Assembly (NCBI GenBank): GCA_020833055.1
Contig: JAJHQZ010000022.1
Span: 1-6,520 of the forward strand
DNA length: 6,520 nucleotides
DNA from: Candidatus Korarchaeum sp.
Lineage (GTDB): Archaea; Korarchaeota; Korarchaeia; Korarchaeales; Korarchaeaceae
Reading direction: 5' to 3'
Below are positions 2,075 to 5,400 of this stretch, piece after piece. Position 1 is the stretch's first letter. Each line of letters opens with the position of its first letter. The position numbers were made by a program, and so were the translations under genes. The notes under the pieces are model-generated. The model had not been told where the DNA came from. It did not search any database and saw nothing but the letters and a program-made list of their open reading frames with translations.

Positions 2075-2509
2075 TCACATCCCTCTCTCGGGCTTATATC
2101 CCATCTGCGTTATCTCAACGCTCTTAACGAATTCAAGGCTCTTTATCCTCTCCACTAGAGCTGATATATCGAGCTGGCAGTTCGATAGATCTGCTACTAT
2201 GACCCACTCAGCTGTCTCGCCCCTCCTTATCGTCCTGGATTCCGTCATGATTAGATCCACTCCCTCCTCGGCCAAAAGGCTAGCAGCTCTAGCTAATACT
2301 CCGGGCCTGTCCGACATAACTATCCTCATCCTATACACTTTGGCCTGGAGCTCTAGGAGAGGTATTATCCTGAGCTCCTTCTTAGATGAATTAGCGATCA
2401 ATAGGAGCTTCATGCCCTCCCTCAATCCCAGTATCTTCCTTATCTTCAGGGGGATAGTGACCCTGCTCTTCGAATCCATCACCACGAAGTCGTAGACTTC
2501 CTCCGACAT
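2075..2509 (-). CDS. AbrB-type DNA-binding / ACT-domain transcriptional regulator
   Basis: From the ATG at 2507-2509 this is a 144-residue two-domain protein. Residues 5-55 form an AbrB/MazE-like swapped-hairpin DNA-binding domain, seen in MDSKSRVTIPLKIRKILGL followed by EGMKLLLI. Residues 58-135 form an ACT domain, with the ligand-loop motif DRPGVLARAASLLAEEGVDLI and a C-terminal strand FVKSVEIT. ACT domains typically bind amino acids, so this is probably an amino-acid-sensing regulator. It is divergent from an amino-acid ABC importer, the natural target. A GTG at 2513-2515 would add two residues, but it lies inside the palindrome at 2511-2524. ATG 2509 is preferred because it falls about where transcription should start from the TATA-like element at 2535-2543, giving a near-leaderless mRNA. 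The palindrome over its own start suggests autoregulation. The exact ligand cannot be read from the sequence. Confidence 0.88.
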   Translation of the reverse strand: MSEEVYDFVVMDSKSRVTIPLKIRKILGLREGMKLLLIANSSKKELRIIPLLELQAKVYRMRIVMSDRPGVLARAASLLAEEGVDLIMTESRTIRRGETAEWVIVADLSNCQLDISALVERIKSLEFVKSVEITQMGYKPERGM

Positions 2510-2510
2510 A

Positions 2511-2524
2511 CCCACTCAAGTGGG
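2511..2524. promoter_or_regulatory. Palindromic operator site 1 (regulator side)
   Basis: CCCACTCAAGTGGG has 6-bp arms around a 2-bp centre and is followed by ATGG. It lies directly upstream of the regulator ATG at 2509, over the predicted start of that leftward transcript. It matches site 2 in 12 of 14 positions, differing only at two central bases. A protein bound here should block the regulator's own transcription. Confidence 0.6.
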
Positions 2525-2534
2525 ATGGAAAAGC

Positions 2535-2543
2535 TTTTAAATA
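2535..2543. promoter_or_regulatory. Shared TATA-like element of regulator and transporter operon
   Basis: TTTTAAATA, preceded by the purine-rich GGAAAAG (2527-2533, a possible BRE), is a rightward TATA box. Transcription would start near 2565, leaving a roughly 17-nt leader to the ATG at 2582. The reverse strand, TATTTAAAA, can serve leftward with a start near 2513. It lies midway between the two palindromes, whose midpoint is at 2540.5. Confidence 0.55.
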
Positions 2544-2556
2544 AATGTGTCTGTGT

Positions 2557-2570
2557 CCCACCTAAGTGGG
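2557..2570. promoter_or_regulatory. Palindromic operator site 2 (transporter side)
   Basis: CCCACCTAAGTGGG is the second copy of the palindrome, 46 bp from site 1 and again followed by ATGG. It covers the predicted start of the importer transcript. Together the two sites read CCCACYYAAGTGGGATGG. The AbrB-ACT protein encoded next door is the obvious candidate ligand, but binding is inferred. Confidence 0.6.
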
Positions 2571-2590
2571 ATGGTGGGACAATGGTGGGA
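2571..2590 (+). repeat. Tandem ATGGTGGGA half-site repeat over the importer start codon
   Basis: ATGGTGGGA occurs at 2571-2579 and again at 2582-2590, 11 bp apart, about one helical turn. Each contains GTGGGA, the right half of the operator palindrome. The pair covers the weak ribosome-binding region (GGTG at 2573-2576) and the binding-protein start ATG at 2582. They could be accessory half-sites, or a by-product of the start-codon context. Confidence 0.35.
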
Positions 2591-3394
2591 AGATATATAG
2601 CTGCCCTCTTGCTCGGCCTTTTATTGGGCGTAGCCGTAGGCTACGCTATCCCGAGGCAAGGGAGCTGCCTATTCGAGAGGTCTAAGTTCTCAAATGCTCC
2701 CAGCGGGGAGGTGACCATAATCTATGGGTTCGACGCTAACTACCCGCCTTTCACAGTCATGCAGCCTAATGGAACGCCAGTGGGCTTCGATGTGGACTTG
2801 ATGAATTTGATAGCTAAGAAGTACGGTTGGAAGATAGTCTACAAGCCGTGGGATTGGTCAACGATAGTGACCGCGCTTGAGAATGGGGATATAGATGTCA
2901 TCGCATCTGGAATGACATTCAATGCCGCGAGATCCCAGAAGATATGGTTCTCAGTCCCTTATTACTCTTATGTACACCAGCTCGTCGTCAGGAGTGAGGA
3001 TAAGAGGAGCTTCGATGAGATACTGAATTCCAATGAATATATAGCTGTCCAATTGGGCTCTACATCCGATGAATGGGCCGATAGGCTCCTCAAGTCCGGA
3101 TATAAGTTCAAGAAACTTGGTCTGGATTCTTACGTCTCCGCTCTCGAAGCGCTCCTCGACGGTAGGGCTTCAGCTGTGATAACTGACTCAGCTTTCCTAG
3201 AGCCTTACTTAAAGAGGAATCAAGATTTAGCGGCTAAGGTCAAGGTCCTCGGGAGCATAGGCGCCCCTTACGTATACGCTATAGCCACTAGGCCCCAGGA
3301 TAAGTGGCTGAGGGATAAGATAAACGAGGCCCTGGAGGAGCTCATGAACAGCCCGAAGTGGAATGAGTTACTGAAGAAGTGGGGGCTCGATTGA
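2582..3394 (+). CDS. Polar amino-acid ABC transporter substrate-binding protein
   Basis: This 270-residue protein should capture an amino acid outside the cell and deliver it to the permease. Residues 5-22 are a hydrophobic signal or anchor segment; no clear lipobox precedes C29. Residues 44-268 match the family 3 solute-binding fold: FDANYPPFT and GFDVDLMNLIA in lobe 1, then DVIASGMTFNAARSQKIWFSVPYY. In that stretch R117 is the expected carboxylate-binding arginine. Later come AVQLGSTSDEWA and AVITDSAF, where D202 is the expected amino-group contact. The C-terminus NSPKWNELLKKWGLD is typical. I chose ATG 2582 over an in-frame ATG at 2525. The longer form would put MEKLLNKCVCVPPKWDGGT before the signal segment and would start upstream of the predicted transcript start. 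The stop abuts the next start, so the genes are coupled. Fold and residues indicate a polar amino acid; its identity is not resolvable. Confidence 0.92.
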   Translation: MVGRYIAALLLGLLLGVAVGYAIPRQGSCLFERSKFSNAPSGEVTIIYGFDANYPPFTVMQPNGTPVGFDVDLMNLIAKKYGWKIVYKPWDWSTIVTALENGDIDVIASGMTFNAARSQKIWFSVPYYSYVHQLVVRSEDKRSFDEILNSNEYIAVQLGSTSDEWADRLLKSGYKFKKLGLDSYVSALEALLDGRASAVITDSAFLEPYLKRNQDLAAKVKVLGSIGAPYVYAIATRPQDKWLRDKINEALEELMNSPKWNELLKKWGLD

Positions 3395-4042
3395 ATGCCT
3401 TCAGTCATAGAATACATACCCTTTTTGATGGAGGGTTCCCTTTGGACCCTCTCCCTAGTGGCCCTGGGCCTCTCCCTCGGCTTCTCTCTCGGGTTACCCA
3501 TAGCCATAATGGAGTTCTACGGAGCGAGGCTGGATGCTTACATCTGGTTCATGAGGGGGACCCCTCTAATAGTCCTCCTCTCCCTCCTCTACTGGGGGGT
3601 CTTCCCGGCATTAGGGGTGAGACTAGGCCCCTTCGAGACGAGCGTGATAGCTCTGGGCCTGAGGAGCAGCGCCTATCAATCTCAGATATTCCTAAGCGCC
3701 CTTAACTCTGTGGATAGCGGTCAGATAATCGCTGCTAGGTCTATAGGGATGAGGGAGAGGCAAGTTGTGGCTTATGTACTGCTCCCTCAAGCCCTTAGGA
3801 TCTCCCTGCCGTCTTGGTCGAATGAGTACGCGATAATGCTGAAGGACTCCTCCATATGCTTCGCTCTGGGAGTCATGGAGATACTGACTAGAGCTAGATA
3901 CATCTCTGTAGCGACTGGATCAGCTCTCCTCCCTTATCTCCTCGCCGGAGTCCTCTTCTTCTCCTTAACTCACGCGGGGACTAGCGCAATAGAGCTCATC
4001 TACAGGAGGGTGAGGATCAAGGGGACTCTGGGGGCTGGATGA
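3395..4042 (+). CDS. Amino-acid ABC transporter permease 1 (HisM/GlnP family)
   Basis: This 215-residue integral membrane protein should form half of the import channel. Hydrophobic segments lie at about residues 15-38, 56-74, 81-100, 145-165 and 175-195, close to the usual five helices. The family signature FMRGTPLIVLL is present at 52-62. The EAA loop that docks on the ATPase spans about 112-133 (IAARSIGM ... LLPQA). The ATG directly follows the TGA of the binding-protein gene with no gap, and its own TGA overlaps the ATPase ATG by 4 nt. Both junctions favour translational coupling. The segment before the EAA loop, AYQSQIFLSALNSVDSGQ, departs from the usual AYxxExxRGA pattern that permease 2 keeps, so this is the more diverged subunit. 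Both permeases probably pair as a heterodimer. Confidence 0.92.
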   Translation: MPSVIEYIPFLMEGSLWTLSLVALGLSLGFSLGLPIAIMEFYGARLDAYIWFMRGTPLIVLLSLLYWGVFPALGVRLGPFETSVIALGLRSSAYQSQIFLSALNSVDSGQIIAARSIGMRERQVVAYVLLPQALRISLPSWSNEYAIMLKDSSICFALGVMEILTRARYISVATGSALLPYLLAGVLFFSLTHAGTSAIELIYRRVRIKGTLGAG

Positions 4043-4778
4043 TGCTAAGGATAGAGGACCTTAGGAAGAGGTACTCAGGAGTAGAGGTACTCAAGGGAGT
4101 CGACTTAGAGCTGAGGAAGGGGGAGACGAAAGTCATAATGGGGCCGAGTGGGGCCGGGAAGAGCACTCTGCTCAAGTGCATAAACCTCCTCGTGAGGCCG
4201 GATGGCGGTAGGATATTCGTAGATGGCGAGGAGATAACATCGAAGAGCGATGTATGCAGGGTGAGGCAGAAGATCGGCTTCGTCTTTCAGGAGTTCAATT
4301 TGTTCAACCACTTGACGGTGATGGGGAACGTAACGATAGGGCTGACGAAAGTGAAGGGTATGAGCAAGAGAGATGCTATTTTGAAAGCGAAGGAAGTCCT
4401 CAGGGCCGTTAGGATAGGGGAGGAGCTCTGGGACAGATATCCGGCTCAGCTATCGGGGGGCAGAAGCAGAGAGTAGCTATAGCGAGGGCCCTCGCTATGG
4501 ATCCTGTATTGATGCTTTACGATGAGCCCACATCCGCTCTAGATCCTCAGCTATCGATGGAAGTGCTCAGCGTGATGAGGGAGCTATCCGAGAGGGGGAT
4601 GACCAGCTTAGTAGTGACCCACGAGCTGAGTTTCGCTATCGAAGCTGCCAGCAGCATAGCTGTGATGTACGATGGGAGGATAGTGGAAGAGGGGAGGCCT
4701 GAAGAGATAATAAGGAGCCCTAAGACGGCTGAAGCTAGAGCTATGTTCAAAGGGAGGTTGAATTATGTTCTGGTATGA
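4039..4778 (+). CDS. Amino-acid ABC transporter ATPase (GlnQ/HisP type), interrupted by a one-base frameshift
   Basis: This cytoplasmic subunit should power import by ATP hydrolysis. The first frame (4039-4476) encodes 145 residues: A-loop Y12, Walker A GPSGAGKST (35-43), Q-loop Q84 and the start of the signature, AQLSGG. It then reads RSRE and stops at 4474-4476. The conserved continuation lies in the -1 frame from 4461 to 4778: QKQRVAIARALAMDP, Walker B LMLYDEP, D-loop SALD and H-loop H195. Supplying one G in the G run at 4455-4460 restores a single 246-residue protein of normal family length. All downstream motifs are intact, so decay, if real, is recent. It could be a sequence error, a true frameshift, or recoding. 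Its ATG overlaps the permease 1 stop by 4 nt, and its end overlaps permease 2 by 14 nt. Confidence 0.88.
4455..4461 (+). other. G-run slippery heptamer at the ATPase frame break
   Basis: GGGGGGC read in the upstream frame as G GGG GGC has the X XXY YYZ form of a -1 frameshift site. It encodes the double glycine of the LSGGQ signature. A -1 slip here gives exactly the conserved S-G-G-Q-K-Q-R sequence. A single-G polymerase slip or sequencing drop in the run would have the same effect. Confidence 0.4.
4753..4758 (+). promoter_or_regulatory. Strong ribosome binding site for permease 2
   Basis: GGAGGT lies 6 nt upstream of the ATG at 4765, inside the end of the ATPase gene. It fixes the permease 2 start and would allow independent initiation even if ribosomes stop at the ATPase frame break. 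Confidence 0.7.
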
Positions 4779-5400
4779 TCTGGCATCCTCATTGCTAGTG
4801 GGAACGATGAATACTTTGGAACTGCTGCTCATCTCAGCCCCCCTGGGGACGGGGCTTGGGATAGCTGTAGGGATCCTCGGCTCCAGGAAGGGATTCCTCA
4901 GCATTCTAGCTAGGGCATTCTCATCTATCTTCAGGGGGTTCCCCCTGCTAGTAACTTTATTCATAGTCTTCTTCGGCTTAGCGGATTTCGGTATTTACTT
5001 GAGCCCAACTGCTTCAGCTATAATATCCTTCATCCTCTGCAGCAGCGCCTACATATCGGAGTACGTCAGAGGAGCTATATTATCGATAGATGAGGGGCAG
5101 AGCTTAGCAGCGAAAGCTATAGGGATGAATGAGACCCAGGAATTCCTCTACATAATAGTGCCTCAAGCGGTGAGGAGGGCCCTCCCCAGCATATCCAATG
5201 AGATAGTTTACATGGTCCAGTACTCATCCCTAGCATTCGCGATAGGTGTTCAAGAGGTATACAGTGTCGCTAAGAGCTTCAACTCCCTTTACTTCAGGCC
5301 CCTGGAGATATTCTCAATATTAGCCCTCATATACCTCTCGATGACAGCTCTCGTTACCTTAGCCTTCAGGAAGCTGACTGAGAGGCTCAGAGTACCTTAA
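4765..5400 (+). CDS. Amino-acid ABC transporter permease 2 (HisM/GlnP family)
   Basis: This 211-residue membrane protein is the second channel subunit. It has hydrophobic segments at about residues 8-38, 50-73, 80-96, 140-160 and 180-203. The signature FRGFPLLVTLF is at 56-66. It keeps the canonical AYISEYVRGAILSIDEGQ, followed by an EAA loop at about 114-133 (LAAKAIGM ... IVPQA). The start is set by GGAGGT at 4753-4758. The gene overlaps the ATPase end by 14 nt and is the last of the operon. Having the ATPase gene between two permease genes is less usual than permeases side by side. Its TAA shares bases with the TAA of the convergent surface-protein gene, and no terminator is evident between them. 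Confidence 0.92.
   Translation: MFWYDLASSLLVGTMNTLELLLISAPLGTGLGIAVGILGSRKGFLSILARAFSSIFRGFPLLVTLFIVFFGLADFGIYLSPTASAIISFILCSSAYISEYVRGAILSIDEGQSLAAKAIGMNETQEFLYIIVPQAVRRALPSISNEIVYMVQYSSLAFAIGVQEVYSVAKSFNSLYFRPLEIFSILALIYLSMTALVTLAFRKLTERLRVP

Follow-up and report, generated by a model that had tools for sequence, protein, structure and literature searches.

The established archaeal example of programmed -1 frameshifting is the fucA1 gene of Saccharolobus solfataricus (PMC8211752), which carries an A-rich heptamer and rare codons; its frame break is also present in a second strain, and its full-length product has been detected. At -1 frameshifting sites the downstream structure is spaced 5-9 nt from the slippery sequence, whose Y positions are usually A or U (PMC8211752). 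Frame breaks that occur as singletons are regarded in the GeneTack survey as being, for the most part, indels or errors (PMC3711429). In polar amino-acid importers of the GlnHPQ and HisJQMP type, a single operon encodes an SBP_bac_3 binding protein, a GlnQ/HisP-like ATPase and two permeases of the HEQRo type. The locus described here has the same composition but differs in its ATPase gene, where this genome alone has a one-base break. Our analysis points to a one-base deletion as the most likely cause, with a one-off sequence error in second place.

The window analysed is an entire contig of 6520 bp, one of the 25 contigs (1.39 Mb) of a Korarchaeum-like genome. Its nearest relative among the genomes compared, hereafter the sister, is a single contig of 1,590,757 bp. 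The operon at 2525-5400 encodes, in this order, a binding protein (PF00497), a permease, an ATPase and a second permease (Table 1). Because it combines an SBP_bac_3 protein and two BPD_transp_1/HEQRo permeases with an ABC ATPase (assessed from the unbroken sister gene), the operon is of the polar amino-acid ABC importer type. The HEQRo permease model scored above its cut-off; the nearest model for the ATPase was GlnQ, with a score under that model's cut-off. In the sampled stretches on which our genome-wide counts rest, the binding protein of this operon is the only SBP_bac_3 match.

Table 1. Positions of the importer genes and of the features around the frame break in the window.
Feature	Position	Strand	Remark
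Substrate-binding protein, SBP_bac_3 (PF00497)	2525-3394	+	true start probably nearer 2583
Permease 1, BPD_transp_1, HEQRo type	3395-4042	+	
ABC importer ATPase gene, 5' part: Walker A, Q-loop, LSGG	4039-4476	+	145-aa ORF, premature stop
G6 run + C, in-phase G GGG GGC, within LSGGQ	4455-4461	+	one-base difference from sister gene
ATPase gene, 3' part, -1 frame: signature remainder, Walker B, H-loop	4461-4778	+	96% identity, stop-free
10-bp hairpin inside AIARALAM codons	4477-4500	+	intact sister gene has it too
Permease 2, BPD_transp_1, HEQRo type	4765-5400	+	

The frame break is real in the sequence as given, and the remainder of a HisP/GlnQ-type ATPase lies in the -1 frame. The first ORF reads PAQLSGGRSRE and ends there, at a stop four codons past LSGG, and its product shares 94% identity with residues 1-145 of the intact sister ATPase. 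The -1 frame is stop-free from 4449 to 4775 and corresponds to sister residues 138-246 at 96% identity; seven of the eight substitutions that separate the 3' part from the sister fall on third positions of this frame. A preliminary description had reported the early stop, the continuation in the -1 frame and a run of six Gs, all of which we recovered, the run at 4455-4460 followed by a C.

The sister is 97% identical at the locus, and its ATPase gene is a single frame of 246 codons, one base longer at the break. Aligned with each other, the two operons show no gap other than one base at the break site. The five further orthologues in the genus (70-80% identity) are all intact; the two-piece ATPase occurs in this genome only and 6/6 clade orthologues, sister included, are single open frames. 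Methanodesulfokora records share 68-69% protein identity, in keeping with a korarchaeal placement. The break is therefore confined to one lineage with intact relatives, the distribution of a young frameshift or pseudogene. A conserved slippery run was found in none of the six clade orthologues, and the intact genes differ freely in the codons used for Ser-Gly-Gly (TCA GGG GGG, TCC GGA GGT, TCC GGG GGG, TCG GGA GGG, TCT GGA GGT and TCC GGA GGA). Conservation of six Gs in related genomes had been proposed as a check on the break; the run is not conserved. Six Gs occur in the sister as well, where they follow an additional base in an intact frame, so a conserved six-G count alone would be no evidence of recoding. 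A scan of viral contigs yielded no other copy of the break site.

The preliminary description leaned towards recoding at a slippery site, in which either a programmed -1 shift of the ribosome or slippage of RNA polymerase at G GGG GGC would yield some full-length ATPase. This reading draws on the open and conserved -1 frame, the hairpin downstream, the archaeal precedent of fucA1 and the heptamer itself, which does lie in X XXY YYZ phase as had been stated. That phase is not independent evidence. When a G run ends at the GGG GGG CAG codon boundary, losing a single base inside the run or immediately ahead of it always leaves an in-phase heptamer, and the heptamer exists in this gene because of the missing base; alone it is therefore no evidence of recoding, a caution that applies to any one-base loss at LSGGQ codons of this form. 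Of the 421 ORFs sampled from this genome, 34 also contain an in-phase G GGG GGH heptamer, and GGGGGG is found in the window at chance frequency (6 observed, 6.2 expected). Y is G here, against the usual A/U, and the slippage runs cited in the survey are of A or T and longer than this G run (PMC3711429). The hairpin folds well alone (z -2.3 for a 49-nt stretch), but it starts ~15 nt past the heptamer, outside the 5-9 nt spacing, and the intact sister gene has the same hairpin, so that by this evidence it is not a frameshift stimulator; the wider region is no more structured than shuffled sequences (z 0.07). A GGGGAGG stretch at ~4417-4425 lies ~30 nt upstream of the site, which is farther than expected for a Shine-Dalgarno-like stimulator. 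A programmed site would be expected to keep both break and slippery run among relatives, and no relative is broken. Taken together, we consider recoding very improbable. A leaky -1 frameshift of recent origin at the G-only heptamer, specific to this species and keeping some full-length importer ATPase, seems to us even less probable; if true, it would explain the continued purifying selection on the operon described below. A functional two-piece ATPase is likewise unlikely in our judgement, with the break lying within the signature motif and no relative split.

Of the three explanations originally offered, recent mutation and then sequence error survive, and programmed frameshifting or polymerase slippage is unsupported. 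We regard as moderately probable that a recent, lineage-specific one-base deletion broke the ATPase gene of the genome's only SBP_bac_3-type importer. A deletion at GGG GGG CAG would produce the heptamer as a by-product and throw everything past LSGG out of frame; the resulting 145-residue protein would lack Walker B and the H-loop, leaving the importer without its cognate ATPase. We favour this reading because the operon alignment to the sister holds a single gap, the relatives are intact, the codons at the site vary, homopolymer runs are not generally undercalled and other genes of this genome appear to be decaying. The occurrence of the deletion in the DNA of the organism, and the loss of function that it would cause, are our inference. 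The rival reading is that the organism's gene is intact and encodes an ordinary importer ATPase, the missing base being an isolated error of sequencing or assembly or a minority variant that the assembler chose; we consider this possible and hold it more tentatively. It gains from the site being a G run on a small contig (only 6.5 kb, which also counts against a young deletion), from the good preservation of both halves of the ATPase gene and from the broken operon being the only SBP_bac_3 system of the genome. Against it stands the accuracy of G/C runs elsewhere. In 325 kb of DNA aligned between this genome and the sister, all 73 comparable G/C 6-runs were of equal length in both genomes, 396/400 5-runs kept their length, and 7-runs numbered 13 here versus 5 in the sister, which makes systematic homopolymer undercalling unlikely and argues that runs of 5-7 are faithfully called.

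Broken genes also occur elsewhere in this genome. When 327 sister ORFs were compared with it, seven matches spanned more than one frame, representing six distinct genes (one appeared twice, in overlapping stretches); the reverse comparison gave 4/306 multi-frame cases in the sister, one of them being one of those six genes viewed from the opposite direction. Relative to the sister, an aldehyde ferredoxin oxidoreductase gene (L038:10901-12787; 7+1+1 nt) and a PLP-dependent enzyme gene (L049:9716-10925; 4+1 nt) carry several frame-breaking deletions, a number of which fall within or next to runs of G. A PEP-utilising enzyme has a 2-nt frame-breaking indel at its C-terminus. These multi-base or clustered lesions probably represent real gene decay. 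Substitutions over the operon were polarised with outgroups, branch by branch, giving 36 synonymous and 10 non-synonymous changes on this branch and 28 and 19, respectively, on the sister branch. The pattern on this branch is still purifying, with no sign of the relaxation that follows pseudogene formation, as expected if the break is very young; we reject an old pseudogene on these grounds. Purifying selection until very recently implies either a very young break or a one-off error, and an error explains the pattern equally well. If the deletion is real, this species may be in the process of losing the one SBP_bac_3-type amino-acid importer that it has.

The window has further features outside the ATPase gene. 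Two palindromes, CCCACNNNNGTGGG, lie at 2511-2524 and 2557-2570, 46 bp apart, between the importer operon and a divergent gene (2075-2515, minus strand) encoding a 146-aa ACT-domain protein with an N-terminus that appears AbrB-like by eye. The longest ORF of the binding protein starts at 2525, ahead of the second palindrome; translation more likely begins at the ATG at 2583, which closely follows that palindrome. The divergent layout, with a similar palindrome pair 47-55 bp apart, recurs in the sister and in each of the five other members of the genus that were compared. This recurrence suggests that the ACT-domain protein is a putative amino-acid-sensing regulator and that the palindromes are its candidate operators, and the conserved pair may be a more interesting feature of the window than the frame break. 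Additionally, ~5.8 kb of sister DNA is missing from this genome at 1892-1990 of the window; the stretch includes a gene for an FAD-dependent oxidoreductase that has a BFD-like domain, together with several other ORFs.

In the ATPase gene, as in fucA1, a -1 shift at a heptamer could join two overlapping frames, and a stem-loop lies further downstream. Unlike fucA1, the ATPase gene has a heptamer of G only, a break that occurs in one genome and a hairpin shared with an intact gene. The break resembles the singleton breaks of the GeneTack survey (PMC3711429), in which one genome is broken and homologues elsewhere are intact, and no feature was found that distinguishes it from them. We class it as a single-base frameshift of an ordinary sort, confined to one genome and of little weight as a mechanism.
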